This document shows positions 5,860-31,020 of a stretch of 64,000 nt of DNA, piece after piece. The notes beneath the pieces were generated by a model that was not told where the DNA came from, made no database searches, and saw only the letters and a list, made by a program, of their open reading frames with translations. The stretch is from Gemmatimonas sp. GTDB lineage: Bacteria; Gemmatimonadota; Gemmatimonadetes; Gemmatimonadales; Gemmatimonadaceae. A program made the position numbers and the translations under genes. The stretch covers positions 1 through 64,000 of the forward strand of contig JAABRO010000005.1 in assembly GCA_011390885.1 (NCBI GenBank), in the 5' to 3' direction. Position 1 is the stretch's first letter, and each line of letters starts with the position of its first letter.

Positions 5860-6395
5860 CGCGTCCTCGCTGTGGTGGAATCGCTGGTCAGTGGCAGCGT
5901 TTCCTGCCGGCTGAATCCGAACTCGTCAATGGAGAAGATCACGGCCTTCTGGCGAATGCCGGACACACGGAGGCGTCCGAGCGTCTGGCCGACGCGGACA
6001 CGGTACTGGGCCTGCGAGACGACGTCGCGCAGGATGGCGACGGAACCGCGCCCGTTCGGGTCGTAGGCGACGGCGGTGAGTCGCAAGTCGCTGACGAGTG
6101 GGCGGAGCTCGCCGCTGGCCATGAGCGACTCGTACGGGTCGCGGCGACCCGCGCCCCGGTAGCTGAAGACTTCCCGATCGATGCTCATCGTCGGTGCGGC
6201 CTCGCTGCCGCGGCTGACCGGCGTCAGGGTATCGACCGCGCCCGCGGACACGCGCACCTCGGCGCGCTGGCGCGCCCCCTTGCTGCTTGTGGCCTGCGCG
6301 TCCAGCGTCGCTGGCGCCGCGAGCGCGAAGCTCGCGGCGGCGACCGCCACCACGAGGGTGTGGCAGCCGTGACGGACCGTGTGGCAGATGCTCAT
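5856..6395 (-). CDS. pilP: PilP-like pilus assembly protein
   Basis: Periplasmic protein expected to link the inner-membrane PilN/PilO complex to the PilQ secretin. The product is 179 residues with an N-terminal hydrophobic signal (VVAVAAASFALAAPATLDAQ). No lipobox Cys is visible, unlike many PilP proteins. The second half has the beta-rich PilP-type core, with DPYESLMASGELRPLVSDLRL, then VAILRDVVSQAQYRVRVGQTL, then IRQKAVIFSIDEFG. Assignment rests on this core plus position: it overlaps pilO by ATGA upstream and pilQ by ATGA downstream. Direct sequence similarity to PilP is modest. Confidence 0.82.
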   Translation of the reverse strand: MSICHTVRHGCHTLVVAVAAASFALAAPATLDAQATSSKGARQRAEVRVSAGAVDTLTPVSRGSEAAPTMSIDREVFSYRGAGRRDPYESLMASGELRPLVSDLRLTAVAYDPNGRGSVAILRDVVSQAQYRVRVGQTLGRLRVSGIRQKAVIFSIDEFGFSRQETLPLTSDSTTARTR

Positions 6396-7036
6396 CGGGA
6401 GACCTCCGACCGGGCGCTGGCGACGCGCTTCGGCGCCGCCTCGGGCGCGGTACGCTCGACGTAGGTTTGTAGGGTGATGGTGGCCTCGAGACCTTCCCGG
6501 TGGCCGTTCCTCGATCGCGAGGAGACCCGGCGGGAGACGCCGTTCGCCGGTGCCAGCTGGAACGTCACCGGCGCCACGATGCGCGGCAGCGAACCGACGT
6601 TCGCCAGGAAGCCCCCGATGTCGTGATAGCCGCCGATGATCGTGACCTTGTAGCGATGCGTGTCGAACTTGTCGCCGCGGATGACGGGCTCCGGCGTGAA
6701 GCCGCCCACGTCGAGACCGGCGCGACGCGCCGCGGTCGACACCTCCTCGAGCAGCGCCGGCACTTCGTTGCTCGTGGGCACGAGGCGGCGCATCGCGGTG
6801 AGCGCGGAGCGCTGTTCGGCCGCCTGCGCACGCAACTCTTCGACACTGCCCGCCTTGAACTCCTTCATGGCGAGGCCGTTCGCGCGCTCGAGCGCTTCGA
6901 CGCGCGACGTGTCGGCCACCAGTTGTTCCTGGGCCGCCGCGTAGGGGTACATGTAGTAGACGACCGCAAGCGCCACGGCGATGACGCCGACGACGAACTT
7001 GAGCTGGTCGCGCTGGTTCTGGGGAAGCAGGGACAT
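6392..7036 (-). CDS. pilO: Type IV pilus inner-membrane protein PilO
   Basis: Bitopic inner-membrane protein of the pilus alignment complex; it pairs with PilN. The 214 residues start with a short cytoplasmic segment (MSLLPQNQRDQLK). One membrane helix follows (about 13-34, FVVGVIAVALAVVYYMYPYAA), then a coiled-coil region (about 35-90). A ferredoxin-like periplasmic domain completes the protein, with KVTIIGGYHDIGGFLANVGS, the typical PilO core. It starts 12 bp after pilN and overlaps pilP. Gene order and core motif make the call strong. Confidence 0.93.
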   Translation of the reverse strand: MSLLPQNQRDQLKFVVGVIAVALAVVYYMYPYAAAQEQLVADTSRVEALERANGLAMKEFKAGSVEELRAQAAEQRSALTAMRRLVPTSNEVPALLEEVSTAARRAGLDVGGFTPEPVIRGDKFDTHRYKVTIIGGYHDIGGFLANVGSLPRIVAPVTFQLAPANGVSRRVSSRSRNGHREGLEATITLQTYVERTAPEAAPKRVASARSEVSR

Positions 7037-7048
7037 GAGGGATCTCGG

Positions 7049-7822
7049 TCAGCGGACGGGAACGACGAGCGGCTCGGTGGTCAGCATTTCCTTCGGGGCA
7101 ACCTCGTATTCCGCCTCGAGCTGGAACTGCGTGATGTCCTTGTTGTCGACCACCACGATCTCGGACTTCATGAGCATGACGTTCTTCACGAACGGCGACG
7201 CCTCGAGGTCCTTCATGAACTGCGTGAGTGCCTGCATGTCGACGGTCTGGCCGGTGAGGCGGAACGCGATCGGCTGATGGATGACGATCGTGTCCTGGAT
7301 CGCCTCGGCGCCCGAGGCCTTCTCCTTGCCCGCCGCCTTCGCCGCGGCCTTCCCCGTCGCCGGTGCCGCCGTGGGCTGCGCACCGGGCGGCAGCGCGGGC
7401 GCGCTGGTCTGCTCCAGCGTGACCAGCCAGGTGTACGACGGCAGCGCGGCGCTCACTTCATCGAGCAGGTGCGCCCAGATGTAGCGGTTGTCGTCGATCG
7501 TGCGGATGATCTGCACCTGGCGCTGCACCGAGTCACGTTCGGCCGTGACGGCGCGACGCGCCTCGAGCACGTTGGTGAGGCGCGTGGAATCCCGCACCGC
7601 CTTGTCGAGGCGGTGTCCGAGCTCGGTGGCACTCGCCTGCTGCGTCGTGAAGAGCAGCCCGACCGCCGCCACCGACAGCACGACGGCGCCGGCCGCACCG
7701 AGCAGCCACGGGTCCCTGACCTTGTCGGACAGGCCGCTGAGCGCGGCGCCGACGTTGAGGGACTTGCCCTTGGCGGACGTGCCCTTCCGGGCGCCCGGCA
7801 GGAGGTTGACCTGGATCTGCAT
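7049..7822 (-). CDS. pilN: Type IV pilus inner-membrane protein PilN
   Basis: Partner of PilO; its cytoplasmic N-terminus binds PilM. The start at 7822 is chosen because the protein then begins MQIQVNLLPG, the conserved PilN tail that docks into PilM; longer readings in this frame run back into pilM. The product is 257 residues: docking peptide, short linker, membrane helix (about 40-60, LLGAAGAVVLSVAAVGLLF), coiled coil, then a periplasmic domain. That domain is split by an Ala/Lys/Pro-rich insertion (about 150-175) before the conserved core IAFRLTGQTVDMQALTQFMK. It lies 15 bp after pilM. Confidence 0.94.
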   Translation of the reverse strand: MQIQVNLLPGARKGTSAKGKSLNVGAALSGLSDKVRDPWLLGAAGAVVLSVAAVGLLFTTQQASATELGHRLDKAVRDSTRLTNVLEARRAVTAERDSVQRQVQIIRTIDDNRYIWAHLLDEVSAALPSYTWLVTLEQTSAPALPPGAQPTAAPATGKAAAKAAGKEKASGAEAIQDTIVIHQPIAFRLTGQTVDMQALTQFMKDLEASPFVKNVMLMKSEIVVVDNKDITQFQLEAEYEVAPKEMLTTEPLVVPVR

Positions 7823-7838
7823 GATTGTCGTCCTCGCC

Positions 7839-8882
7839 TCAGGCGACCGACCGGAGGGCGAGCCCCACCGGCAACATGAGCAACGGCGCCACCTCATCGG
7901 TGGCCATGAACTCGAGCGCCCCGTCGCGCACCGCGAGGCGCGCGAGCGGGTTGGCCAGCTGGACCTGCAGGCGCAGGCGCTCGCCGAGCCAGGGCAGCAG
8001 CCCCGGCGTGCGCGCCCCGCCACCGCACGCATACGCTGCGCGCACCTGACCGTAGTGCCGCGACGACGACGCCAGGAACGACATCGCGCGCTCGAGCCCG
8101 ACCGCGAGCTCCTCGCCGCGCATGGTGATCACCTCGTTGAGGGCCGGCGTGCGATCGAAACCGCGCACGAGCTGTTCCGCCTCCTCGGAGGTCAGGCCAT
8201 GGTCGCGCTGCAGGTCCTCGCGCATGCGCCGCGTGCCGACCGTCAGGTCGCGCGTGAGAATCGGAACGCCGTCGTCGAGGATGTTGAGTGTCGTGACGTC
8301 GTTGCCGATGTTGAGCAGCGCCACGACGCCGGACATCGCGTCGGGGTAGTTGACCGCGAAGGCGTTGTGGAGTGCGAACGCATCGACATCCATGATGCGC
8401 GGCGTGACGCCGGCGTCGGCGATCAGATGGCGCTTGATCTCCACCAGGTCCCGCTTGGCCGCCACGAGCAGCACGTTCATCTCGAGGCTGTCACCCTCGG
8501 GATCGAGGATCTGATGATCGAGTTCGACGGAGTCCATGTCGAACGGCACATGCTGCTCCGCTTCCCACCGGATCAGCTCCGCGGCCTGCGCCTCCTTCAC
8601 CCGCTCGACCTGGATCTTCTTCACGATCACGTCACGCCCGCCCACGGCCGCCACGACTTCCTTCTTCTTGCCTCCGATCGTCTCGAGCGTCTGCCGGATC
8701 GCGTCCGCGACCATGGCATGATCCATCACCTCGCCTTCGACGATGGCGTTTTCGTTGAGCGGCGTGATGACGACCTTCGTGAGTTCCGGTGTCGCACCGG
8801 CATGATCGATGACCACGGCCTTCACGAGGCCCGACCCGATATCGAGTCCGATGGTCGTCTTCTTTCGGCCGAAGAGCTGCAT
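7839..8882 (-). CDS. pilM: Type IV pilus actin-like ATPase PilM
   Basis: Cytoplasmic actin-fold protein that binds PilN and forms the inner ring of the pilus machine. Its 347 residues begin MQLFGRKKTTIGLDIGSGLVKAV, with the first phosphate-binding loop at IGLDIGSG. Later come LLNIGNDVTTLNILDDG and AYACGGGARTPGL, matching the actin/FtsA phosphate-2 and adenosine motifs. The start at 8882 is chosen by analogy with other PilM proteins; a GTG at 8984 is possible but adds an unrelated basic tail. It is the first gene of the pilMNOPQ cluster on this strand. Confidence 0.95.
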   Translation of the reverse strand: MQLFGRKKTTIGLDIGSGLVKAVVIDHAGATPELTKVVITPLNENAIVEGEVMDHAMVADAIRQTLETIGGKKKEVVAAVGGRDVIVKKIQVERVKEAQAAELIRWEAEQHVPFDMDSVELDHQILDPEGDSLEMNVLLVAAKRDLVEIKRHLIADAGVTPRIMDVDAFALHNAFAVNYPDAMSGVVALLNIGNDVTTLNILDDGVPILTRDLTVGTRRMREDLQRDHGLTSEEAEQLVRGFDRTPALNEVITMRGEELAVGLERAMSFLASSSRHYGQVRAAYACGGGARTPGLLPWLGERLRLQVQLANPLARLAVRDGALEFMATDEVAPLLMLPVGLALRSVA

Positions 8883-16679: not shown

Positions 16680-18023
16680 ATGTCCGTCGACCCTTCCAGT
16701 ACCGCCGAAACGCTCACGGCCGGCACGATCACGTTCCGGCTCGCCATGGTCCTGCTGCTCGTGGCCGCGAACGCCTTCTTCGTGGCCGCCGAGTTCGCGC
16801 TGGTCGCGGTGCGGCGCAGCCGCATCGATCAGCTCGCCGCCGAGGGCAACCGCAGCGCCGCCGTGGTCCAGCGCGCTCTCGGTGAGCTCGATCGCTACAT
16901 CTCCGGCACGCAGCTCGGCATCACCCTGGCCTCGCTGGCCCTCGGCTGGATCGGTGAACCGGCCATCGCCGTGCTCGTGGACGCCGGACTCGGCGCCGTC
17001 GGCATCGACGTGCCGCCCGGGGTGGCGCACAGCGGAGCGGCCATCCTGGTGGCCTTCACGGTCGTCACGTTCCTGCACATCGTCTTCGGCGAGCTGATGC
17101 CCAAGTCGGTGGCGCTCATCCGGCCGGAAGGGGTGAGCCTCTGGGTCACGCGCCCGCTCATCATCTTTTCGAACGTGATGTCGCCGTTCATCGCCCTGCT
17201 CAACGGCACGGCGAACCGGCTGCTGCGGCTGGTGGGCGTGGAGCCGGCGAGCGAGGGGTCGCATGTGCACTCGCCCGAGGAGCTTCGCCTGCTCGTGATG
17301 CAGGCGCGCGCGCACGGCACGCTCGACGAGAGCGACTCGGCCATGCTGGCCGGCGTCTTCGACTTCCACAACAAGAAGGCGTGGGACGTCATGCGCCCGC
17401 GCACGGACGTGGCCGCGATTCCGGAGGACGCCGACGAAGCCTCGCTTCGGCAGATCCTGCGGACGGAACGCTACTCCCGCTATCCGGTATACCGAGAGAC
17501 GCTCGACGACGTGGTGGGCGTGCTGCTCGCCAAGGACTTCTGGCTGTACGAAGCAACGACGCCCTTCGAGCTGCGCGAGCACTTGCGGGAGCCGCTGTTC
17601 GTGCCCGCCACGCGCGCGGCCGAGCGCGTGCTCGAGGACCTGCGCCGCACGCGCGCCCACCTGGCCGTGGTGCTCGACGAGTACGGCGGCACGGCCGGCA
17701 TCGTCACGCTCGAAGATCTCGTGGAGGAAGTGGTTGGTGACATCGCCGATGAATACGACCAGGTGGACCGCAACGCGATGGTCACCGATGGCGTGCTCGA
17801 ACTGGCCGGCGCGCTCTCCCTCGTGGACGTGCGCTCCGACTATCGCCTCGCCATTCCCGATGGCGACTGGACCACGCTTGGTGGCTACGCGTTCTCCGCG
17901 CTGGGGCGCCTCCCGAAGCTCGGCGACCGGGTGCCCTATCCCGGCGGAGAGCTCGAGGTCGTGGCCATGGACGGTCGCCGTGTGGCCGCACTGCGTGTGC
18001 TCGCCCGCCAGGAGCCATCGTGA
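16680..18023 (+). CDS. CNNM/CBS-domain membrane protein (HlyC/CorC family)
   Basis: The 447-residue protein has a DUF21/CNNM membrane domain at the N-terminus (about 12-195, starting FRLAMVLLLVAANAFFVAAEFALVAV). A pair of CBS domains follows (about 215-335, VMRPRTDVAAIPEDA and VLDEYGGTAGIVTLEDLVEE), then a C-terminal CorC/HlyC transporter-associated domain (GDWTTLGGYAFSALGRLPKLGD). Members of this family are linked to magnesium or cobalt efflux and to divalent ion homeostasis; the 'hemolysin' name is historical. ATG 16680 is used as start; ATG 16635, inside the operator-like dyad, is also in frame. Its last codon overlaps the next gene (GTGA). Confidence 0.9.
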   Translation: MSVDPSSTAETLTAGTITFRLAMVLLLVAANAFFVAAEFALVAVRRSRIDQLAAEGNRSAAVVQRALGELDRYISGTQLGITLASLALGWIGEPAIAVLVDAGLGAVGIDVPPGVAHSGAAILVAFTVVTFLHIVFGELMPKSVALIRPEGVSLWVTRPLIIFSNVMSPFIALLNGTANRLLRLVGVEPASEGSHVHSPEELRLLVMQARAHGTLDESDSAMLAGVFDFHNKKAWDVMRPRTDVAAIPEDADEASLRQILRTERYSRYPVYRETLDDVVGVLLAKDFWLYEATTPFELREHLREPLFVPATRAAERVLEDLRRTRAHLAVVLDEYGGTAGIVTLEDLVEEVVGDIADEYDQVDRNAMVTDGVLELAGALSLVDVRSDYRLAIPDGDWTTLGGYAFSALGRLPKLGDRVPYPGGELEVVAMDGRRVAALRVLARQEPS

Positions 18024-18865
18024 ACGCTGAGCAGTCTGCACGTCGCGTGCGCCGCGGCGCCGACGTGACGACGCGCTGGCTGCTGGTCGCACTCGTGGCC
18101 GCAGCGGCGTGCCGTCCCTCGGGCGACGTGCGCGACACGCGCCGCAACGCCGCGGTCGTGACCGAGGCGGACACCGGCATCGTGATGGCACCGCAGGGTG
18201 CCTCCGCCCGTGAGTTCCCCGCCCCGTCGCGCCCGGTGGCCGACATCGTGGCCCCGCGGTGGAGCAACGAAGACGATCGCGACGACATCGGCGAGGCCGA
18301 GCGCGTCCTGCGCATCCTGCAGCCGAAGGAAGGCATGCACGTCGCCGACATCGGCGCGGGGGACGGCTACTACGTCGCGCGTCTCGTGCCGCGCGTCGGC
18401 CCCACCGGCCGCGTGTACGGGGAGGACATCACCCCGCGCTACCTCGAGCTGCTCGCCGCGCGAGCGCGCCAGTCGGGATGGACGAACGTGGATGTGGTGC
18501 GCGGCGAGGCGCACGATCCACGACTGCCCGCGGGCAGGCTCGATGCCGCGATCATGATCCACATGTACCACGAGATTTCGCAGCCGTTCGGCCTGCTGTG
18601 GAACCTCGCGACGGCCATGAAGCCCGGCGGACGACTGGTGATCCTCGACCTCGATCGCCCGACCTGGGGGCACGGCACGCCGCTCAGCCTGCTGCGCTGC
18701 GAGCTGAAAGCCGTCGGGTACCGGGAGTCACGCGTGGACCGCGCGGTACCCGGCGAATACGTGGCCGTGTTCGTCGCGCCCACGCTCGAGACGCGACCTT
18801 CACCCGAGGCGATCTCGCGCGCGCTGGCCGAACGTCCCTGCGCCGCGCCCGGCGGACGCCGATGA
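18020..18865 (+). CDS. Lipid-anchored SAM-dependent methyltransferase-like protein
   Basis: The 281-residue protein starts with a GTG that overlaps the stop of the CorC-like gene. A basic N-terminus and a hydrophobic stretch end in a lipobox (VAAAAC, Cys31). After a 70-residue linker comes a class I methyltransferase fold: motif I VADIGAGDGYYVARL (108-122), acidic end of strand 2 VYGEDI, then MIHMYHEI and MKPGGRLVILDLDRP. The combination of an export/lipidation signal and an S-adenosylmethionine fold is odd, because SAM is cytoplasmic. Either the signal is not used, or the domain binds something else outside. Substrate unknown. The next gene overlaps by ATGA. Confidence 0.83.
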   Translation: MNAEQSARRVRRGADVTTRWLLVALVAAAACRPSGDVRDTRRNAAVVTEADTGIVMAPQGASAREFPAPSRPVADIVAPRWSNEDDRDDIGEAERVLRILQPKEGMHVADIGAGDGYYVARLVPRVGPTGRVYGEDITPRYLELLAARARQSGWTNVDVVRGEAHDPRLPAGRLDAAIMIHMYHEISQPFGLLWNLATAMKPGGRLVILDLDRPTWGHGTPLSLLRCELKAVGYRESRVDRAVPGEYVAVFVAPTLETRPSPEAISRALAERPCAAPGGRR

Positions 18866-20210: not shown

Positions 20211-21728
20211 TCAGGGTGCGGCGAGCAGCCCCGGCACGCGCGTGGGGTCGCCGATCGCGAGCGCCAGCGCGGCGCGGGCAGCCGCGACGCGCGCCTCGAG
20301 TTGCGCGAGGCGCGCCGCCTCGTCGAGCACCGCCCGTTCCCGGAGGTTCACCACCAGCAGCGTGCTCTCGCCGTTGTCGAAGCGCGCCTGCTCCGCATCG
20401 CGGAGCAGCACCGACCGTTCCACGTTCCCTGCCTGCTGGGACACGATGCGCCGCAGCACATCGAGGTCGTTGGCCGCGATCCGCACCGCATTCTCCACTT
20501 CGCGGCCGAGCCGGTCGCGCTCCACCCGCCGGATGTCGAGTCGCGCGCCGGCGCTGCCGAAGCGGCCGCGCTCCTTGAGGAACAGCAGCGGAGACTTGAT
20601 CTCGAGCGAGGCCTTGTAGTTGTCCTCACGCACGCCCGTGTCGAGGAAGTCGGGCGACTCGCCGCGCGCCGCCAGCGTATACACGCCCGCTTCGGCAAAG
20701 GGGATGAGCTGCTGCGCCGTGAGCAGGCGCAGCGCCGACGCGGAACGCACGTCGGCCTCCACCTTGCGGAGCGACGGGTTGGCGGCGCGCGCCGTCGCCA
20801 GCCATGCCCGCACCATGGCGCTGTCCACCGGCGCCTCGGCGGCCGCATCGAGGCCGGCGAGCGAAGGGCGCACCGAGGGCGCCAGTTCCACCGGCCGGCC
20901 GTCGGCGTCCCACAGGTATGCGGTGAGGGCCAGCTCCGCCGCGAAGTACGCCGCCTCGGCCTCCTCACGCGTCACCTCCCGTCGCTGCACCTCGAGTGAC
21001 GCTTCGACCGTGTCCACCGGTGGGCTCTCGCCGTTCTGGACACGATTGACGACGGCCTCGAGGCGAAAGCGCGCGAGCGCCACGCCATCACGCGCGATCG
21101 CGGCGCGACGCCACTGCTCGTACCACGCCCCGTAGGCGCGCGATGCATTGAGCAGCAGGCCGTTGTAGATCGCGATGCGATCGGCCTCGCCCGCGTCACG
21201 CACCGCCCGGGCCTGCACCAGCGCGGTGCGCCGTTCGTCGGTGATCAGCCGCTGGCCGAGCGGCACACTCATGCCCACGGACAGCAGCCCGAGGTCCGGC
21301 GTGCGTCGGTCGGAGCCGATGTACGTGCCGCGCGCCGACTCGAACCCCACCTTGAGGTCGCTGCCGATCGGCGTGGGAATCTTGAGCGAGATGTCGCTGT
21401 AGGCGTAGTAGTTGGTGCCGCTGAACCGCTTCTGGTCCCACGTCGCGGAGAGCGTGGGATCGAACGCGCCCCAGGCGGTGCGCAGCTGGCTGCGCACGTC
21501 TTCGGCGAGCAGGTCGGCCTGCCGCGCGATGGGGTGATCGGCCATCACCTGCGCGATGAACGTCGCATAGGTGTACGGCACGCCGGACGTGTCCCCGACT
21601 GCGCTGAACGTCGGCGCCTGCGCCGCAGCCGGCTCGGCCAGCACCGCGGTGACACACAGGGCGAGCAGGAACGCGCGACCGGACCGGCGTGGCTGCCGGT
21701 CGCGCCTGCCAGCGTCCGCCCCGCTCAC
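20211..21728 (-). CDS. TolC-like outer-membrane channel protein
   Basis: Outer-membrane component of a tripartite exporter. It has 505 residues from a GTG that overlaps the stop of the HlyD gene (GTGA). A signal peptide ends PAAAQA (about residue 37). Two TolC-type repeats follow, with long helices such as DEAARLAQLEARVAAARAAL at the C-terminal end and strands such as YKASLEIKSPLLFLKERGRF. The longer open frame to 22031 is rejected because it overlaps hlyD and lacks a signal. It is third in the coupled ABC-HlyD-TolC order and is expected to form a continuous channel with the adaptor. Confidence 0.87.
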   Translation of the reverse strand: MSGADAGRRDRQPRRSGRAFLLALCVTAVLAEPAAAQAPTFSAVGDTSGVPYTYATFIAQVMADHPIARQADLLAEDVRSQLRTAWGAFDPTLSATWDQKRFSGTNYYAYSDISLKIPTPIGSDLKVGFESARGTYIGSDRRTPDLGLLSVGMSVPLGQRLITDERRTALVQARAVRDAGEADRIAIYNGLLLNASRAYGAWYEQWRRAAIARDGVALARFRLEAVVNRVQNGESPPVDTVEASLEVQRREVTREEAEAAYFAAELALTAYLWDADGRPVELAPSVRPSLAGLDAAAEAPVDSAMVRAWLATARAANPSLRKVEADVRSASALRLLTAQQLIPFAEAGVYTLAARGESPDFLDTGVREDNYKASLEIKSPLLFLKERGRFGSAGARLDIRRVERDRLGREVENAVRIAANDLDVLRRIVSQQAGNVERSVLLRDAEQARFDNGESTLLVVNLRERAVLDEAARLAQLEARVAAARAALALAIGDPTRVPGLLAAP

Positions 21729-23086
21729 TTCTTGCTCCCGCCGCCCTTGGCGGGGGTCATGCCACCCGCGTAGCCACCGGTGCTCCCCTCCGCGGCGCTC
21801 GGGTCGATCGACGGCGGGAAGCCGTTGAGCTGACGCCAGATCTCGAACCACACGCGCACCGTGTCGAGCATCGCCCACCCGTACACGCCCGAGCCGGCGC
21901 GCAGCTGCGCGGGCCAGGGTTCGTCGTCGGGGTCCGGCACCACGAGCACGCGGAACTGCCCGTTGGTGCTCGCGACCTGATCGATCACCGCCACCTCCCC
22001 ACCGAACGTGCCCACCGCCACACTGGGCCACCCCGAGAACTGCAACGCCGGCCAGCCGTCGAAGGTAAGGCGCACCTTGCGACCCGCCCGGAGCAGCGGT
22101 ACGTCCATGGCGCGCACGTACAGCTCCACCGCCTGTCGCGGGGTGGCCGGCTGCACGGTCACGATCGGCTCGCCCGCCTTGACGAGCTCGCCCACACCCT
22201 GCCGCATGGCCTTCACCACGTACCCGTCCTGCGGCGCCTCGATGCGGTAGTACGACTGCCGCACCTCGAGCGACGAGACCTTGTTGCGCAGCTTCGCAAT
22301 CTCCGCCTCGCCCTCGCCCACCTCGGCGAGCGTGCCGGAACGGTCGGAGCGGGCCTTCTCGATCTTCTCACGGTACTCGGCTTCGAGCGAGCGCAGCTCG
22401 ATCTCGGCATTGAGCAGCTCATTGCGACGCTGCACGAGCGCCGCCGACGCCGACTGCGCGCGCATGCGCGACGACTGCAGGTCGTTGAGCGAGACCAGGC
22501 CGAGCGGTGAGCGATACAGCGAGTCGCGACGGGCAAACTGGTCAGTGGCGATCGAGTCCTCGAGCGTGACCTGGGCGACGACGGCGTTGAGCTGCACCAC
22601 CTTGTTGCGCGCCTGCTCGAGCTTGAGCTCGAGCACGTCTTCGAGGGCCTCGATCTGCTCGGCAAGCGCCGCGGCCTTGCGTCGCTTGTCCTGCACGGCG
22701 CTGCTCTTGGCCGCGAGTTCCTCACGCGTGCGCGTGACGACCTCGGGATCCATGTACTCGTCCTTGATTTCCGAGATCTGCACGATGGGCGTGCCGCGCG
22801 CGACGAACTGTCCCTCCGCCACGAACCACCGCTCGATGCGGCCGTCGATGCGCGACGGCAGCGTCTGCGGACGGTCGGACGGGCTGAGCGCACTCAGCAC
22901 CCCGGTCCCCTGCACGTTCTGCTGCCACGGCAGGAATGCCGCCAGCACGATCGCGACGAACAGTCCCACCACCCACCGCGCCACCACGCGGTACGACTGC
23001 GACTCGTACAGGAGGCGCGACGAGCGCAGCGGCAGGGTGGCCGGATCGAACGCGTTGCCCCCGGCCTTCTTCGACGGCGCGCTCAT
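21725..23086 (-). CDS. HlyD-family membrane-fusion adaptor
   Basis: Periplasmic adaptor joining the ABC protein to the TolC-like channel. It has 453 residues: short cytoplasmic tail, one membrane helix (about 35-54, VARWVVGLFVAIVLAAFLPW), a half lipoyl domain (GTGVLSALSPSDRPQTLPSR) and a long coiled-coil hairpin (about 115-260). The second half-lipoyl (IEAPQDGYVVKAMRQGVGEL) and beta-barrel follow. The end is Gly/Lys-rich (GGMTPAKGGGSKK). The start at 23086 overlaps the ABC stop by ATGA, so the three subunits are probably made in fixed proportion. Confidence 0.9.
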   Translation of the reverse strand: MSAPSKKAGGNAFDPATLPLRSSRLLYESQSYRVVARWVVGLFVAIVLAAFLPWQQNVQGTGVLSALSPSDRPQTLPSRIDGRIERWFVAEGQFVARGTPIVQISEIKDEYMDPEVVTRTREELAAKSSAVQDKRRKAAALAEQIEALEDVLELKLEQARNKVVQLNAVVAQVTLEDSIATDQFARRDSLYRSPLGLVSLNDLQSSRMRAQSASAALVQRRNELLNAEIELRSLEAEYREKIEKARSDRSGTLAEVGEGEAEIAKLRNKVSSLEVRQSYYRIEAPQDGYVVKAMRQGVGELVKAGEPIVTVQPATPRQAVELYVRAMDVPLLRAGRKVRLTFDGWPALQFSGWPSVAVGTFGGEVAVIDQVASTNGQFRVLVVPDPDDEPWPAQLRAGSGVYGWAMLDTVRVWFEIWRQLNGFPPSIDPSAAEGSTGGYAGGMTPAKGGGSKK

Positions 23087-25353
23087 GCGTTGCTCCCGAG
23101 CGTGCGGGCGCGCACGTCGCGCGCCACGGCAGCAGACCGTTCGTGCGAGTCGAGCAGCTGCTCGCAATACGGGTCGTTGCGCACCTCGGTGAAGGTGCCA
23201 TCGGCGGCGATCGCCCCGTCACGCACCACGAGCACGCGATCGAAGGACTCCAGCAGCACCGGGTCGTGCGACACCGCGATCACCGTCCAGTCGCGCGACG
23301 GATCGCTGAGGATGCCCAGCAACCGGCGCCGATCGTCGGCCAGCAGGTTCATGAACAGGTCGTCGAAGAGTACCAGCCGCGGATTGCCGGCGATGCCCTG
23401 CGCCAGCAGCAGCTTCGTGGCCACGTGCGACGGCAGCGACCGGCCGCCGTTGACGATGCGCGTTTCGAGCCCCTCGCGCATGCCCTGCACCTCGGCCTCC
23501 AGCCCCACGAGCCGCAGCGCCTCCCACACATCGGCCTCGCCGATGTGCTGGCGCCCCACCGCGATGTTCTCGGCGATGGTGCCCTCGAACAGGTCGGTGA
23601 GGGAGAGCACCTGGCCCACCCGCTCGCGCATCTGCTCGCGATCGATCTCGTGCATCGAGATGCCGTCCACCAGCAGCGTGCCGTCGTAGTCCTCGAGCAA
23701 TCCGGACAACAGGCGGAGCAGCGTGCTTCGCCCCGCGCCCTTGAAGCCGGTCAGCGCCACGCGCTGGCCCGCCGGAATCGTGAGCGAGACATCGTTCAGC
23801 ACGAGCGAGCCGCCATCGCCGTACTCGTAGGTCACGCCGCGCGCCTCGACCTCCATGCCGGTGGCGCGGAACGGCAGGGCGGTTCGCCCCGGCTCGTCGA
23901 GCGGCAGGGCGGTCACATGTCCGGCCTTCTCCACCGACGTGAGCATGTCGTACACCACGCTCATGGAGAACACGAGCTTCTCCACACCCGCCAGCACCGT
24001 CACCACCACGAGCTCCGAGGCCACGAACTGGCCCAGCGTGATCTGCCGGTTCACGACGAGCACGGTGCCCACGATGAGCAGCGCGGCCGTGATGAGCGTC
24101 TTGAACGCCACGATCGAGACGGCCTGCTGCACCAGCACACGGAAGTGCTTCTGGCGGTACTTGAGGTACTTGGTGAGGATGGCGTCCATGCGCCCGAGCG
24201 CCAGCTCGGAGCGCCCGGCGAACTTGAAGGCGTGGAACGAGCGCGCGATTTCCTCGAGCCAGTGCACGGCGCGGTACTTGTACTTGCTCTCGAGCAGGCT
24301 GGTGGCGAGCCCCTTCGGTCCGGTGATCCACACGATCACGGCGAGCGTGGCCACGAGCAGCAGCCCCACCAGCGTGAAGTACGGGTGGTAGAACGTGAGC
24401 AGCACGAGGCCGAAGAAGATCGTCAGCAGCGCCTGCGACGTGTCGAGCAGGAACTTCGCGAGACTCTTCTGGATGAGCGCCGCCTCGAAGAGGCGGTTCA
24501 TGCTCTCCGGCAGGTCCTCGCGCAGCGACACGGAGTAGCGGATGCGCGGCAGGTGGAAGGCGTACTCGAGCGCCAGGCGCGCGAAGACGCGCTGCTGGAT
24601 GCGCTCGACGACGCCGAGCTGCAGCACCTGCAGCACGCCGGCCACGATCGTGCCCACGATGACGTAAGCGATGAGGATGGACGCCGACTGGATCAGCAGC
24701 CCGCCCTGGATGAGCTGCACGATCGCACCCACGCTGAGCGGCAGCGTGAGCGAGAAGAGTCCCGCCAGGCCAGCGTAGAAGAACACCACGAGAATCTCGC
24801 GGCGGTCCTTGTTGATCAGCTCCCAGAGGCGCGACACGGCACTCGAGACGTGTTCGCGCGCTTCGGCCTCGGCCTGTGCCTCATCGGACGGCTCCTCGAC
24901 CTGCGACGCGGCGTACGAGGGCGTCGGCATTCGCATGGCAGCCGGGCTCATGGCGAAGGGGCGGTCGCCGAGGCGGGCCGTCACTTCGCGGGCGATCTCC
25001 GCCGGCGTGCGCGCGGCCAGCGGCGTGGCCTCGCCCTGCGGCGACACGACCGTCAGCAGCGCGCGACCCGGGGCGTCCTCCGCCAGCACGAGCACGTCCC
25101 CCTCGGCCGCGTTCGGACCGGACAGCAGGACGACGGGATAGTCCCGCTGCTCCACCGCTCGCTCCACCGCGTCGGGGCCGACGATGCGCGTGAGATAGGT
25201 CAGCCCCAGGGCCTGACCGGCCATCTGCAGCTGCTCCGCGACGGACGCCCCGCGAGTCCGCGAAGCGAGCGCGTCCCAGGTGGCAGGCGCGATGTCGAGA
25301 CGAAGCGCGCTCGCAAGCAGTTGCGACGCGCGCGTGGACTGTCGAACGGTCAT
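23083..25353 (-). CDS. ABC exporter (HlyB-like) with degenerate ATPase domain
   Basis: The 756-residue protein has an N-terminal C39-like region (about 1-160, no obvious catalytic Cys), an ABC type I membrane domain (about 185-490, six helices) and a nucleotide-binding domain (about 510-756). The catalytic motifs of that last domain are altered. Walker A reads GFKGAGRST (536-544), with Arg542 for the invariant Lys. The Q-loop Gln is Ser (GQVLSLTDLF). The LSGGQ signature is missing (GGRSLPSH, 636-643). Walker B ends in Asp664-Asp665, with Asp for the catalytic Glu. His696 of the H-loop is kept. It is the first gene of a coupled operon with HlyD and TolC-like partners; cargo unknown. Confidence 0.88.
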   Translation of the reverse strand: MTVRQSTRASQLLASALRLDIAPATWDALASRTRGASVAEQLQMAGQALGLTYLTRIVGPDAVERAVEQRDYPVVLLSGPNAAEGDVLVLAEDAPGRALLTVVSPQGEATPLAARTPAEIAREVTARLGDRPFAMSPAAMRMPTPSYAASQVEEPSDEAQAEAEAREHVSSAVSRLWELINKDRREILVVFFYAGLAGLFSLTLPLSVGAIVQLIQGGLLIQSASILIAYVIVGTIVAGVLQVLQLGVVERIQQRVFARLALEYAFHLPRIRYSVSLREDLPESMNRLFEAALIQKSLAKFLLDTSQALLTIFFGLVLLTFYHPYFTLVGLLLVATLAVIVWITGPKGLATSLLESKYKYRAVHWLEEIARSFHAFKFAGRSELALGRMDAILTKYLKYRQKHFRVLVQQAVSIVAFKTLITAALLIVGTVLVVNRQITLGQFVASELVVVTVLAGVEKLVFSMSVVYDMLTSVEKAGHVTALPLDEPGRTALPFRATGMEVEARGVTYEYGDGGSLVLNDVSLTIPAGQRVALTGFKGAGRSTLLRLLSGLLEDYDGTLLVDGISMHEIDREQMRERVGQVLSLTDLFEGTIAENIAVGRQHIGEADVWEALRLVGLEAEVQGMREGLETRIVNGGRSLPSHVATKLLLAQGIAGNPRLVLFDDLFMNLLADDRRRLLGILSDPSRDWTVIAVSHDPVLLESFDRVLVVRDGAIAADGTFTEVRNDPYCEQLLDSHERSAAVARDVRARTLGSNA

Positions 25354-25496: not shown

Positions 25497-27434
25497 TCAC
25501 TGCCGCAAAGGTAACCCCGATGATCCGGCCGGGATCCATCGGTTTTCTCTATGCGGAACCGCGGCGTCACCAGCGCTCGCCGCCGTCCCCACGCCCCCTG
25601 CCGGATCGCGCCACACTCGTACCGTGCGCACGTGCACACTGCCCGCGGTCGCGTGCGCCCCCGGCAGGGCGGTCACCGCTGCGTTCGGGCCGACGCCCTG
25701 CAGCAGCGCCGCCGACAGGTCGCCCACGGGCACCGTCAGGCGCACTACCGTGACCCGACCCGGGAGCAGGTGCCAGGCGCGCGTGTCGGCCCGATCCACC
25801 GCCGAGACCAGCAGTCCGGCCAGCAGGCCGGCCGCCTCCCCATGCTGGTCGCGCACGGCCTCCACGGCCGCCATGCGCGTCACCGTGCGCGCGGTGAGGC
25901 GCGCGATGCGCGCCCCCCGCAGCCGGCGAGCGTCCGCCCCCACGGCATCGCTCACCGACGCGATGGCACGCGCGCTGCCAGCGAGCGTCCGGGACAGCGC
26001 CCACGTGCCATCGGCAGGCGCGCGGTCCGCCGCGCTGTCCGCCGCGCGCGCCTCCGCCGGAGGCCGCACACCCGAGAGCGCGATCTGCAGCGGGACGCGC
26101 GGCAGCAGCGGGCGAACGAGCGTGGGCCAGGCGATCTCCATCCATGAGCGGTGCGCCCAACGATCGCCGAGGTAGTGCGTGCGCACCACGCGGCGCGGCG
26201 TCCAGTCGTGCGCCACGGAGGTTTCGACGGCTGCAAGCGGCATCGGGTCGGCCCACGACAGGTCGTCGTCGAACACGCCGCCGTCGGGGAGCGCGTCCAG
26301 CGCCGCCAGCCAGTTCGACTGCACCGCCACGCGCGGGCGCACCGTGCGCACCGCGAGGGTGTCGTGCAGGCCACCGCGCTGCTCCGCCGCGAGCGGCCCT
26401 GCAGACGTGGGCCCCGTGGCCGTCGGCGTCGCCGGCGGCACGGGAGGCGCGGCCGCCGCCGAATCGCGCGGCGCATTCACGCCAGCTGCGATGGCGTCGC
26501 CGATCGACACCGGGCCGCGACCCGGCGTCTCCGACGCGTCGCGCATGCCGCGCCCCGACGAGCGGCCGCGACCGACCGTGGCCAGCACATCGGCGATCGC
26601 GCCGGCGGTGTTCGAGTCCGCGCGATGCCGACCCGCGCGAGGCGCGCCGAACTGCCACGCGAGTCCGTCATCGAGCGGAATGGCCAGCGTGCGCGCCACG
26701 TAGTGTGCCACGAATCCCTGCTCCACCACGAGCACCAGCGTGGCGCTGTCTCCGTCGGGGCGCGCGGCCACGATCGTGTCCACCGCCGCGCGCGGCTCGC
26801 CCCGCAGCAGCGCCGCGTTGCGATAGGCGACGCCGGCATCGTTCCACTCGCCAGCCGCCTCGAAGACCGCACCGGCCACCTCGCGCAGCGCCGCATGCGT
26901 CTCCCGCTCGGCGGCCTCGACGTCGTGCGCCGCGTCCTCGAGCAGTGCGGAGAGGCGCCGCGCTTCCACCGCGGCCCCCGACACGTCCCCCGACTGCACG
27001 CGACCGAGCATCGCGTAGTAGCGCGAGAACAGCCGCTCCGTGCGCGGCGGCACGTAGCGCAGCGCACGGTCATTCACGAGCAGCGAGAGCGCACCGCGCG
27101 ACACGCTCTTCGTATACCGCTCTTCGGTGAGGCGATCCGCCTCGGCAAAGGCCCGCGCGCTCTCGTCGTACTGCCCGGCGTAGAACGCGACCTGCCCGCG
27201 GAACAGCGCGCGCAGCAGCGCGTCCTCGGGCGCGCCATCGGCCTTGGGCAGCGTGCGCGCCAGCGCCTGCTCGAACGATCCCATCACCAGCGCACGGCGC
27301 ACGAACTCCTCTCCCCAGGGCAGTCCGCTCGGCGCCACGTTCGCACTGCGCGCCGCACCGCGCCACATCGACGCGCAGCCGCTCGCCGACAGTGCGGCGA
27401 GCGACAACGCGAGGAGGGGCACGAGGCGGCGCAT
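25497..27434 (-). CDS. Large lipoprotein with TPR-like N-terminus (COG3014-like)
   Basis: The 645-residue product has a lipobox SASGC (Cys20). Helical repeats resembling TPRs follow (about 50-240, FRGQVAFYAGQYDESARAFA, LLEDAAHDVEAAERETHAAL), then a long Pro/Ala/Thr-rich linker. The C-terminal domain contains VVRTHYLGDRWAHRSWMEIAWPTLV and ends in a beta-rich RAWHLLPGRVTVVRLTVPVG. The general layout, and its place next to an LpoB-like gene, fit the uncharacterised COG3014 lipoprotein family; the match is by memory and not checked. It follows the small TPR lipoprotein by only 3 bp. A role in cell-envelope or peptidoglycan upkeep is inferred. Confidence 0.68.
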   Translation of the reverse strand: MRRLVPLLALSLAALSASGCASMWRGAARSANVAPSGLPWGEEFVRRALVMGSFEQALARTLPKADGAPEDALLRALFRGQVAFYAGQYDESARAFAEADRLTEERYTKSVSRGALSLLVNDRALRYVPPRTERLFSRYYAMLGRVQSGDVSGAAVEARRLSALLEDAAHDVEAAERETHAALREVAGAVFEAAGEWNDAGVAYRNAALLRGEPRAAVDTIVAARPDGDSATLVLVVEQGFVAHYVARTLAIPLDDGLAWQFGAPRAGRHRADSNTAGAIADVLATVGRGRSSGRGMRDASETPGRGPVSIGDAIAAGVNAPRDSAAAAPPVPPATPTATGPTSAGPLAAEQRGGLHDTLAVRTVRPRVAVQSNWLAALDALPDGGVFDDDLSWADPMPLAAVETSVAHDWTPRRVVRTHYLGDRWAHRSWMEIAWPTLVRPLLPRVPLQIALSGVRPPAEARAADSAADRAPADGTWALSRTLAGSARAIASVSDAVGADARRLRGARIARLTARTVTRMAAVEAVRDQHGEAAGLLAGLLVSAVDRADTRAWHLLPGRVTVVRLTVPVGDLSAALLQGVGPNAAVTALPGAHATAGSVHVRTVRVWRDPAGGVGTAASAGDAAVPHRENRWIPAGSSGLPLRQ

Positions 27435-27437
27435 GGG

Positions 27438-28277
27438 TCAGCGTCCGCGGCGGTCGAGCACCACGATGCGCTGCTGCGCGAGCGCGATGGCTTCGGCCAG
27501 CTTCGCGTTCTGCGTGCCGACGGCGTCGATCCGCTGCAGCTCCAGCGAGAGCAGGAACTTCTGGTAGCGCATGAGCGCCTCCACCGGCCGCAGCTGCTGG
27601 TCGAGCAGCTGCCCCACCTTGTAGTTGAGCAGCGCATCATCGGGCGCGAGCACGAGCGCGCGATCGTACCGCTCGAGGGCGCGCGTGCGGTCGCCCGCGG
27701 CCACGAAATCGTCGCCTTCGCGCACCAGCGCTTCGGCCAGCGCTGCCGTGCGCGCCGTGCGCGTCGTGTCGGCCGCTCGGCTCTCCACGCGTAGCCCGGT
27801 GCGGTCACGCCGTGCCACGCTCGTCACTCGCTCGCCATCGAGTTGCACGAGCGCGACCGTGCCCTGCGCGTCCGTCGGCATCGCATCGAGCGACGCCGGC
27901 GTCATCACGGTGCTGCCACCGGTGCGGCGCATGCTCCACGCCTCCGGGGCCGAACGGGTCGCCGCGAGCACCTGCGCCGACGACATGCCAAGCGCCACCT
28001 CGCCGCGGCCGATCGCGTCGCAGATCGCGCCGCTGCAGGAGGCCACGGCCACGGCGGTCAGCGAATCCTGCGTGGCCTGCCGCGCGCGTCGCGCCGAGGA
28101 TTCACGCGCCTGCGCGTCGGCGATGGCGTCGTCGGCCATCGCCACGCGGTCGCCGGTCATGAGCACCGGCGCTTCCTGCACCACACGCGGGCCATTGCAG
28201 GCCGAGAGCACGGCCGTGCCCGCGAGCAGCGCGAGCGGCAGCCACCGATTGGACTGGATCATGGGATTGCGGGGCAT
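27438..28277 (-). CDS. TPR-containing lipoprotein
   Basis: The 279-residue product has a signal peptide with lipobox LSAC (Cys27). A coiled-coil region rich in Ala/Arg follows, then a small central domain with two Cys (ASCSGAICDAIGRG). At the C-terminus a TPR-like pair (GDDFVAAGDRTRALERYDRALVLAPDDALLNYKVG) and a helix end the protein. TAGGAG sits 7 bases before the ATG at 28277. It lies 9 bp after the LpoB-like gene and 3 bp before the large lipoprotein, so the three are surely one operon. Confidence 0.75.
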   Translation of the reverse strand: MPRNPMIQSNRWLPLALLAGTAVLSACNGPRVVQEAPVLMTGDRVAMADDAIADAQARESSARRARQATQDSLTAVAVASCSGAICDAIGRGEVALGMSSAQVLAATRSAPEAWSMRRTGGSTVMTPASLDAMPTDAQGTVALVQLDGERVTSVARRDRTGLRVESRAADTTRTARTAALAEALVREGDDFVAAGDRTRALERYDRALVLAPDDALLNYKVGQLLDQQLRPVEALMRYQKFLLSLELQRIDAVGTQNAKLAEAIALAQQRIVVLDRRGR

Positions 28278-28286
28278 GGGGTTCTC

Positions 28287-28982
28287 CTACCAGCCGATGC
28301 GGCGGCGGTCGACGTACTTCTTGATCTTGTGCTGACCCACCCAGACCTTGGCGTTGCTCGTGAGGTCCACGAGCGTGGCGTCGACCTGGTAGGTGACCAC
28401 CCGTTCACGCCCCTGCGCGTCCTCGATGGCCTGCACGTCGCCCTGCAGCATGAACTGGGCGCCCTGCTCCATCGCGAGGCGCGCCCGCGACTCGGCCACC
28501 GCGTTCGCCTGCTGGTCCGCGCGCTCGGCGCGCACCGAGGTGCGCTCGTCGGCGCTCGCCACCACGCGCACCGCCCCCGATGTCACGTAGGCGCGTTCGA
28601 GGTCGCGCGTGAACGTCTGCACCGGGATGTGCTCGAGCGTGCGGTTGGTGAACGGGCCGATGATGACGGTGGGTGTGCGGCCGCCGTTCGAGGCGGCGAA
28701 CTGGGCGGCCCAGGTCGCATCGAGCGATTGCGTGATGAGCGCGTTGGCGACGAGCCGCGAATCGGCATCGTTCCAGCGGCCGGAGAGGTCGGTGACCGAG
28801 GTCGGGTCGATGCGGGCGACACGAGTGCTGCCACAGGCGGCGAGCGTGAGGAGCGCCGCGAGCGCCCCGGTCGCGCGGAGCGCGGCGCGCCGTCGCGATG
28901 GACGGAGCACGGCACGGCGCGGCCCCCTCACGGCCACGCGCGCGCCCGGGGACGCGGAAAGCGGAAGGAGAGGATCGGGCAT
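28287..28982 (-). CDS. LpoB-family penicillin-binding-protein activator lipoprotein
   Basis: LpoB in Enterobacteria is an outer-membrane lipoprotein that reaches through the peptidoglycan to activate PBP1b. This protein has a lipobox LAAC at Cys50 after an unusually long, Arg-rich leader. The family core follows: DLSGRWNDADSRLVANALI, VIIGPFTNRTLEHIPVQTF, then AQFMLQGDVQAIEDAQGRER and QVDATLVDLTSNAKVW. Total 231 residues. AGGAG precedes ATG 28982. It is first in a three-lipoprotein operon. The same family also holds proteins of unknown partner, so PBP activation is inferred. Confidence 0.85.
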   Translation of the reverse strand: MPDPLLPLSASPGARVAVRGPRRAVLRPSRRRAALRATGALAALLTLAACGSTRVARIDPTSVTDLSGRWNDADSRLVANALITQSLDATWAAQFAASNGGRTPTVIIGPFTNRTLEHIPVQTFTRDLERAYVTSGAVRVVASADERTSVRAERADQQANAVAESRARLAMEQGAQFMLQGDVQAIEDAQGRERVVTYQVDATLVDLTSNAKVWVGQHKIKKYVDRRRIGW

Positions 28983-29246
28983 GGCAGCAACTCCTGGACA
29001 GGTTCTGGGTGGGGAATGGAGACACTCCACTACGGTGCACGGGCCGCGCCAGTGACGGAGGGCACACACGCACCGCGCAACCCGTTGTGATCACGGACGT
29101 TACAGATCACCCTCCCACGCCACCGTCCCGTGGGCTGGACGGCAGGGCGTCGCCTGCGGGGGACACCCGGTGCCGCCGCGCGCCGAGACGGTCTGACGGC
29201 GCATGGGCCCACGGGACAGCACCGCCCGCGGCGGGTACCTTACGCC

Positions 29247-29589: not shown

Positions 29590-31020
29590 ATGAGCGATCC
29601 CACCGCCCTCCTGACCGCCGACGCCCCCGAAGGCGCGCGCCAGCTCGCCCTCGACGGGCTGGAGCAGCTGCGCACCGCCCGCGCGCTGCTCGACGCCACC
29701 CCCGAGGACCCGGAGGCGGTGCATGGCGTGCGCGTGGCGCTCACGCGCCTGCGCGCAACGCTCCGCGCGTACCACGAGCTGCTCGACGACGCGCTGCAGC
29801 GCGCGGACCGACGCGCCCTGCGGCGCGCCAACCAGGCGCTGGGGCCAGTCCGTGACCGCGATGTGTACGCCGCCCTCCTGCAGTCGTTCGCGACCCCGGA
29901 GCTCGACGCCGAGGTGCGGGCCGCCGTCGACTGGCTCGCTCGCCGCCTGCAGGTGCAGCGCACCCGCCGGCTGCCGCGTGCCGCGCAGCAGCTGGCGCGG
30001 CACCTCGATCCGCACCTCGACCGCTGGCAGGACCGCCTGTCGCACTACACGGTGCATCGCGTCGTGGGCGCCACCATGACGGCGCACCCGCTGGCCGCGG
30101 TGGTCACGGAGCGACTCGGGCGCGCCACGGCGCGCATCGCGGCGAGCGCGCAGGTCGCGGCGGCGGCGCTCGGGTCTCCCGGTGAGGCCGACGCGCTGCA
30201 TCGCCTGCGCATCGACGTGAAACGACTGCGCGCCCTGCTGGTGCCGTGGCGTGCGGCCGTGCCCGAACTGACGCCGCTCTTCGACCTCGCCACGCGCGCG
30301 CAGGACGCGATCGGCGCCGAGCGCGACGCCCGATCGCTCGCGCGACGGGTACGCCGCGCCACCGAGGTGGAGCCCGCGCTCGCGGTGCCGTTGCACGTCC
30401 TGGCGGACATCATCGACGCGCGACGCGTCACGCTCGCTGAAACGGTGCAGCGCGAGTGGCTGCAGGGCGACGCGATCGCCGAGCTGGCCGCCCTCGTGCC
30501 GGCCGCAGCGGACGCCCTCACGCGGGCGCTGCGCCGCGACGTGGAGATCGAGCGCAAGTACCTGCTGCACACGCTGCCCGACATCGCGGCGCACACGCCG
30601 GGCATCCGCATTGCCCAGGGGTGGTTGCCCGGCGAGCGGCTGCGCGAACGCCTGCGTCGCAGCGTGCACCCCGATGGCCGCGTGGAATGGACGCGCACCG
30701 TCAAGCTCGGCACCGGCGTGCGTCGCGTCGAGCTCGAGGAGCCGACCGACCCGATGCTCTTCGAGTCGCTCTGGCCGCTCACCGCCGCTGCGCGCGTCGA
30801 GAAGGTGCGGCACGCGGTGCCCGAGGGCGCCGTCACGTGGGAGATCGACGTGTTCCTCGACCGGCCGCTGCTGCTCGCCGAGGTCGAACTGCCGTCCGAA
30901 GACACCGAGGTCGAGCTGCCAGCGTGGCTGGCACCGTGTGTCGAGCGCGAGGTCACCGGGGATCCGGCCTACGTGAACGCGAATCTCGCACGCGCGTCTC
31001 GTCCCGCGTCGCACGCATGA
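29590..31020 (+). CDS. CHAD-CYTH domain protein
   Basis: The 476-residue product has two polyphosphate-linked domains. The CHAD domain (about 15-300) carries two sets of conserved His/Arg helices (EAVHGVRVALTRLRATLRAY, DALHRLRIDVKRLRALL) that bind polyphosphate. The CYTH domain (about 315-470) starts at DVEIERKYLL with the ExExK metal/triphosphate motif (Glu319, Glu321, Lys323) and has further basic strands (RERLRRSV, KLGTGVRRVELEE). CYTH enzymes act on triphosphates, for example as inorganic triphosphatase. The order CHAD then CYTH is the reverse of the common CYTH-CHAD proteins such as YgiF. Confidence 0.9.
   Translation: MSDPTALLTADAPEGARQLALDGLEQLRTARALLDATPEDPEAVHGVRVALTRLRATLRAYHELLDDALQRADRRALRRANQALGPVRDRDVYAALLQSFATPELDAEVRAAVDWLARRLQVQRTRRLPRAAQQLARHLDPHLDRWQDRLSHYTVHRVVGATMTAHPLAAVVTERLGRATARIAASAQVAAAALGSPGEADALHRLRIDVKRLRALLVPWRAAVPELTPLFDLATRAQDAIGAERDARSLARRVRRATEVEPALAVPLHVLADIIDARRVTLAETVQREWLQGDAIAELAALVPAAADALTRALRRDVEIERKYLLHTLPDIAAHTPGIRIAQGWLPGERLRERLRRSVHPDGRVEWTRTVKLGTGVRRVELEEPTDPMLFESLWPLTAAARVEKVRHAVPEGAVTWEIDVFLDRPLLLAEVELPSEDTEVELPAWLAPCVEREVTGDPAYVNANLARASRPASHA

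Follow-up and report, generated by a model that had tools for sequence, protein, structure and literature searches.

A tripartite exporter of the HlyB-HlyD-TolC type in Gemmatimonadota and Bacteroidota that appears no longer to depend on its own ATPase

Introduction

The ATPase is the defining part of ATP-binding cassette (ABC) transporters. How, then, can an ABC exporter be maintained when the catalytic motifs of its ATPase are almost entirely gone? This question is raised by a locus of Gemmatimonas sp. (GenBank assembly GCA_011390885.1, contig JAABRO010000005.1), of which a stretch of 64,000 nucleotides, referred to here as the window, was analyzed. It contains an intact 756-amino-acid open reading frame with an ATG start (23083-25353, minus strand), which encodes a HlyB-type ABC exporter protein and is coupled to genes for a HlyD-family adaptor and a TolC-family channel. 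From the comparison of this protein with its relatives in two phyla, the loss of dependence on its own ATPase is strongly supported at the sequence level. With slightly better than even confidence, we propose that an ABC exporter has here turned into a tripartite exporter independent of its own ATPase and most likely driven by an ion gradient.

Loss of the ATPase motifs in the window protein and its relatives

The ATPase site of the window protein was compared with the family alignment at the following positions:

23821..23823, minus strand: A-loop Tyr511, kept (37/37 in the Gemmatimonadota core)
23722..23748, minus strand: Walker A remnant GFKGAGRST, residues 536-544, Lys542 replaced by Arg (36/37 members of the Gemmatimonadota core have R, Q, E, S or A here)
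23602..23604, minus strand: Q-loop position, Gln replaced by Ser584 (sequence, family alignment)
23422..23448, minus strand: signature site GGRSLPSHV, residues 636-644, LSGGQ missing (sequence, family alignment)
23359..23364, minus strand: Walker B Asp664, kept, and catalytic position with Glu replaced by Asp665 (sequence, family alignment)
23266..23268, minus strand: H-loop His696 (kept in 35/37 members of the Gemmatimonadota core, lost in Bacteroidota)

An earlier sequence-only reading of the window had listed these losses (Arg for Lys, Ser at the Q-loop, no LSGGQ, Asp for Glu), and both the sequence and the alignment bear them out. Its statement that only the Walker B Asp and the H-loop His remain is right as to these two residues and too narrow otherwise, since Tyr511 of the A-loop is kept too, along with the glycines and the Ser/Thr of Walker A (G536, T544). 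The description of the gene as full length, in frame and translationally coupled also held true: the junction between the ABC and hlyD genes (23086-23083) is an ATGA overlap (GCATGAGC) and that between hlyD and the tolC-like gene (21728-21725) a GTGA overlap (AAGTGAGC), which places hlyD at 21725-23086 (453 amino acids) and the tolC-like gene at 20211-21728 (505 amino acids). With exporter, adaptor and channel encoded together, the locus has the layout of a type I secretion system, in which the exporter protein comprises a transmembrane domain (TMD) and a nucleotide-binding domain (NBD):

23083..25353, minus strand: HlyB-type ABC exporter protein with degenerate NBD, 756 amino acids (open reading frame; Pfam ABC_membrane and ABC_tran; AlphaFold2 model and structural match as given below)
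24904..25353, minus strand: C39-like N-terminal domain, residues 1-150, peptidase-dead, without Cys or His (sequence; AlphaFold2 model of the domain alone; VIA)
23884..24840, minus strand: TMD, residues 172-490 (319 aligned columns, nearly ungapped across both phyla)
23164..23865, minus strand: NBD fold, residues 497-730, catalytic motifs lost (Pfam ABC_tran, 65 bits; VIA; motif counts)
21725..23086, minus strand: HlyD-family periplasmic adaptor, 453 amino acids, ATGA-coupled to the ABC gene (Pfam HlyD)
20211..21728, minus strand: TolC-family outer-membrane channel, 505 amino acids, GTGA-coupled to hlyD (Pfam OEP, 99 bits)

The AlphaFold2 model of the window protein (43 sequences) reached a predicted local distance difference test score (pLDDT) of 89 and a predicted template modeling score of 0.83, and its top full-length structural match is HlyB in the HlyB/D complex (8dck). 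TMD and NBD together match TM287/288 and others across 560 residues (VIA Z ~29), and the NBD fold is present with Z 29.3 to the TAP1 NBD. Residues 1-150, modeled alone (pLDDT 92.6), match the HlyB C39-like domain with a VIA Z of 10.9 and the C39 peptidase domains of PCAT1 and ComA with Z 9-10, with Foldseek E-values that are weak (0.005 and above). As this domain contains neither Cys nor His, its peptidase is dead, too. The window system resembles the HlyB-HlyD-TolC type I systems, including those of the PCAT/LssB type, in its three-gene logic, its full-length fold and its peptidase-dead C39-like N terminus. It differs from them in that the catalytic ATPase motifs are missing, in that one clade is devoid of the ATPase domain, and in its profile scores: the top NCBIfam matches are type I secretion and bacteriocin exporters, all of them well under the cut-off (LssB 186.5 of 693 bits, HlyB 155.6 of 725, PrtD 149 of 510), while the membrane domain matches Pfam ABC_membrane with 48 bits. 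A large review of tripartite and type I systems describes the C39-like domain of HlyB and other RTX-type exporters as having lost catalysis and retained its fold (PMC8277102); unlike in that case, the ATPase of the window family went the same way as the peptidase.

Further Gemmatimonadota orthologues were found in 9 genomes among 60 relatives (44-73% identity, 578-1183 bits), and the next ABC exporters follow after a large gap at ~25% identity. All nine share the motif losses, as do more than 100 further members. Close homologues with intact motifs, which the sequence-only reading had regarded as a sign of sequencing error or recent decay, were searched for and none was found, near-intact motifs occurring solely in deep, distant Bacteroidota. 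A scan of species representatives with a ten-sequence alignment yielded at least 517 relatives, the best 80 of which belong to Gemmatimonadota and Bacteroidota, with one labeled Kuenenia. This copy (L041/G314, labeled Candidatus Kuenenia stuttgartiensis) is of the Gemmatimonadota type and matches at the same contig coordinates as G232 from the window's own family; the genome is probably a mislabeled metagenome-assembled one. By means of a membrane-domain-only alignment, the family was detected in 35/298 Gemmatimonadota and 97/395 Bacteroidota genomes, with one copy per genome and a single two-copy exception. The order ABC-HlyD-TolC on one strand is found at every locus with a long enough contig.

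The motifs erode differently in the two phyla. In the Bacteroidota core, the Walker A Lys is kept in 84/85 members; the Q-loop Gln, LSGGQ and the H-loop His are gone. The catalytic Glu is missing from most members and the Walker B Asp from many, E, N or T taking its place in much of Bacteroidota. LSGGQ is absent from nearly all core members. Among the deep Bacteroidota, L173 and L175-L177 have GKST, LSTGQ, DEGF/DEAF and the His, and only the Q-loop Gln is missing, while L169-L172, L174 and L178 retain GKT/GKS and the Glu and have lost the signature. Lys and His are lost in L127 and L128 (Gemmatimonadota of another family). A mosaic member of the Gemmatimonadota core (L129, 2199-4046) kept the Q-loop Gln and the catalytic Glu, with Walker A Lys replaced by Glu and the signature lost, which indicates that the order of motif erosion differs between lineages. 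Judged by their motifs, the members form a series from a near-intact ATPase (deep Bacteroidota) via a degenerate one (window), the core having lost almost all motifs, to no ATPase domain at all.

A slow but real ATPase, for which Asp at the catalytic site and Arg in Walker A would suffice, could be considered for the window protein, since two of its changes are conservative (Lys to Arg, Glu to Asp) and the H-loop His is kept. However, the losses extend to the Q-loop and the entire signature, the Lys is replaced by Glu, Gln or Ser in relatives, the constraint on the two domains is inverted (see below) and one clade deleted the domain, which makes residual turnover highly improbable.

Another option would be an ATP-gated device, whose degenerate NBDs would hold ATP without turning it over and serve as a CFTR-like switch or in the way of the degenerate sites of heterodimers. 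The NBD fold is indeed kept under purifying selection, and Tyr511 and the Walker B Asp are retained in Gemmatimonadota and the Walker A Lys in Bacteroidota. Nevertheless, no common set of binding residues is conserved (Lys to R/Q/E/S/A, including Glu, in Gemmatimonadota; Walker B Asp to E/N/T in much of Bacteroidota), LSGGQ, which in a dimer clamps ATP from its second face, is gone from nearly all core members, and one clade is without the domain. An ATP-binding switch, as suggested by the sequence-only reading, is thus disfavored as a general explanation, with binding residues that erode by lineage, and appears quite unlikely.

A clade without the ATPase domain

In one group of Bacteroidota, the proteins comprise 332-374 amino acids with a membrane domain of ~335 residues and no NBD. 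At the 25 loci examined, they stop at the linker (VTDLPL plus a short tail), the start of hlyD mostly lies 8 bp before the stop codon, and a family NBD was found in none of the 25 operons. Misassembly or frameshift as the origin of the short proteins is ruled out by the linker end common to these loci and by their overlapping or abutting hlyD. In the bacterial family of genome G480, which includes the Pontibacter genome G310, the system occurs in 128/150 genomes, 32 of these 128 carrying short frames of 337-409 amino acids. The six ATPase-less proteins of the phylum sample group as one clade in a tree of membrane domains (Shimodaira-Hasegawa-like approximate likelihood ratio test value of 100), which is nested among degenerate members and sits next to Rhabdobacter- and Runella-type proteins; as a quick tree, its deep branching should be taken with care. 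A genome-wide search with an alignment of the family's own NBDs revealed no family NBD elsewhere in 12 ATPase-less genomes, the maximum being 152 bits for ordinary ABC exporters, as against 334-351 bits in three controls. For these 12 genomes, an NBD that was split off and relocated is therefore ruled out.

These observations bear on an ATPase acting in trans, either via a heterodimer with another ABC half-transporter or via a stand-alone NBD. In favor of such an arrangement, degenerate half-transporters usually partner an intact half (PMC7756269), and each genome encodes many other ABC proteins. An intact partner half-transporter was found in none of the operons, and an unrelated partner encoded elsewhere would be compatible with the sequence data. 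On the other side, the family is nearly always present as a single copy, and the ATPase-less members have lost the docking sequence of coupling helix 2 (see below) along with any family NBD elsewhere. The pairing with a second ABC protein that the sequence-only reading had put forward is accordingly disfavored, and we rate it as very unlikely. NBD genes neighboring the operons in L094, L096 and L159 were considered as a possible engine and rejected, since these NBDs are canonical and those in L159 have their own membrane protein encoded after them.

Heterodimeric exporters such as TM287/288, TmrAB, TAP and MRP1 harbor a degenerate site beside a working one and share the Glu to Asp exchange and the altered signature with the window NBD (PMC7756269). 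Likewise, the review cited above names TmrAB as an example of a heterodimer with degenerate sites (PMC8277102). Unlike these exporters, the window family has no intact partner that we could find, and its homodimer would hold two dead sites.

Shift of constraint to the membrane domain

In intact exporters (190 pairs), the NBD is better conserved than the TMD, in all pairs of the three lower filled identity bins and in 86% of those in the highest. This relation is inverted in the core family, where the TMD is better conserved than the NBD in more than 99% of 4,688 pairs. The ratios of non-synonymous to synonymous substitution rates (dN/dS, NG86) amount to 0.01-0.09 for the TMD, 0.03-0.20 for the dead NBD and 0.04-0.19 for the ATPase-less proteins. 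Taken together, the inverted constraint and these ratios suggest that the TMD is strongly constrained, whereas the dead NBD is relaxed yet selected, in keeping with a scaffold or regulator.

Consistently, the gene can be described as changed rather than decaying, as the sequence-only reading had anticipated, given family-wide motif changes and dN/dS values far under 1 for TMD and NBD alike. The common motif changes, the open frames and the low dN/dS rule out a sequencing error as well as recent decay. A relic in slow decay might find support in the lineage-specific erosion of motifs and in one broken copy (G711, L200). This scenario is disfavored and appears hardly credible, because the motif loss is common to every Gemmatimonadota orthologue examined and to a large family in Bacteroidota, with the three-gene operon order kept, the frames are open across two phyla, dN/dS is well below 1 even in the NBD-less proteins, and the system persists in most genomes of one bacterial family.

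Within the TMD, three sites deserve attention, two of them in transmembrane helix 6 (TM6):

24013..24015, minus strand: TM6 Glu447 (E in 127/128 and D in 1/128 core members; kept in 25/25 NBD-less proteins)
23977..23982, minus strand: TM6 Glu458-Lys459 (E458 in 128/128 and K459 in 127/128 core members; acidic at 458 and basic at 459 in NBD-less proteins)
24193..24228, minus strand: intracellular loop 2/coupling-helix-2 region, residues 376-387 (most divergent segment in the NBD-less clade; short helix 373-379 in the model)

Between the 25 ATPase-less and the 128 core membrane domains, the biggest change lies at residues 376-387 (FKFAG onward), while E250, E355, E447, K459, D469, K476 and others are unchanged and position 458 remains acidic. 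Intracellular loop 2 with coupling helix 2 is the place where the NBD docks in type IV exporters. Its divergence upon loss of the NBD implies continued docking of the dead NBD in core members, and a chemistry of the TMD that goes on without this domain. In seven intact outgroup exporters, the positions aligned with E447 and E458-K459 carry other residues.

The main rival to a gradient-driven exporter is a passive gated conduit or scaffold, in which the TMD would anchor and gate HlyD-TolC and the substrate would move down its own gradient or be pushed, without energy coupling. The ATPase is dispensable in one clade with adaptor and channel retained, and the operon holds no second energy module, both in line with a passive conduit. 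Conversely, the charged residues and the nearly ungapped 319-residue TMD are conserved beyond the needs of an anchor, and we consider this explanation unlikely, though not negligible. Of the mechanisms put forward by the sequence-only reading, a gated channel, or other ATP-independent transport, is the one that may still hold.

A possible energy source and known relatives

How could export be powered in a gradient-driven system? SbmA is proton-driven and arose from an ABC membrane domain after losing the NBD and the coupling helices; it features a glutamate ladder, some residues of which are already found in its ATP-driven relative YddA (PMC13316013; see also PMC12003926). The window family resembles these SbmA/BacA-like transporters (SLiPT) in its TMD derived from a type IV ABC exporter and, in one clade, in the loss of the NBD, conserved acidic residues being a probable further parallel (PMC13316013), and the presence of E447/E458 already in most deep members parallels the glutamates in YddA. 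It differs from them in that the window protein keeps a degenerate NBD, the absence of which is confined to the NBD-less clade, and in being part of a tripartite system encoded in an operon with HlyD and TolC, with surviving intermediates. Neither the window protein nor L161 has a Pfam match to SbmA/BacA, ABC_membrane being the sole Pfam membrane match. On present evidence, the sequences point to an origin independent of SbmA.

In our proposal, an ATP-driven HlyB/PCAT-type exporter is the ancestor of what is now the inner-membrane part of a three-part machine, made up of the conserved membrane domain, the HlyD adaptor and the TolC channel. The NBD would be a pseudo-ATPase that folds, probably docks on the TMD and is selected as scaffold or regulator, without powering the cycle; one Bacteroidota clade has dropped it altogether. 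We infer that substrate export continues. By analogy with SbmA, the replacement energy source would be a proton (or sodium) gradient acting through conserved acidic positions in the membrane, E447 and E458 of TM6 among them.

Several points weigh against this proposal. E447 and E458 also occur in most deep members with near-intact motifs; they were hence not acquired together with the loss of the ATPase and may serve structure or substrate binding. For a glutamate ladder as in SbmA, the near-invariant E250, E447 and E458 would have to face the cavity. Moreover, the window protein retains the A-loop Tyr, the Walker B Asp and the H-loop His, and the Walker A Lys, kept in 84/85 members of the Bacteroidota core, may allow nucleotide binding to continue in these proteins. 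SbmA is an importer, while the window family is linked by operon to export partners. Finally, we found no published transport, substrate or ATPase measurement for any family member.

Loss of the NBD from an ABC exporter is already known (SbmA); as far as can be told, no description exists of the tripartite setting, of the pseudo-ATPase stage or of surviving intermediates. No published account of the family, or of homomeric exporters with two dead sites, was found in the open-access literature. Tentatively, and at somewhat below even confidence, we suggest that an ABC exporter became a secondary active transporter for a second, independent time, now within a HlyD-TolC machine, and that the intermediates live on, all of them in the one type of operon. 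Should this hold, a type I-like exporter driven by a gradient would add a new kind to the tripartite pumps. The stepwise discarding of an ATPase, with several stages living in two phyla, makes the interconversion of primary and secondary transporters testable by comparing members, and natural ATPase-less type I-like exporters offer the chance to ask what the TMD alone does. Furthermore, the annotation "ABC transporter ATP-binding protein/permease", or counting type I systems by domain matches, misnames many loci in Bacteroidota and Gemmatimonadota.

Genomic neighborhood

No substrate gene is evident beside the operon, as judged from the neighbors and without a systematic search. What these offer is a TetR-like regulator for Bacteroidota and, for the genus of the window, a trio of the LpoB/lipoprotein type. 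The latter lies directly upstream of the ABC gene (25497-29069, minus strand) and comprises a 645-amino-acid lipoprotein-like protein without a Pfam match, a tetratricopeptide-repeat lipoprotein and an LpoB-like protein, the first two of which are also found upstream in the congeners L031-L033. In many Bacteroidota members (L069, L071, L072, L078, L130-L158), a gene for a TetR-like regulator is located directly upstream of the ABC gene, often with an overlap of a few bases with its start, and in L159 it is divergent instead; its presence suggests ligand-induced efflux. At the broken locus L200 (G711, 4477-8481), the family gene is disrupted by an insertion with transposase-like open reading frames, and the adaptor and channel genes persist. 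Near the operon, the window further encodes a methyltransferase-domain protein with a lipoprotein-like N terminus (18020-18865, plus strand) and a CHAD-domain protein (29590-31020, plus strand), both ordinary so far as seen.

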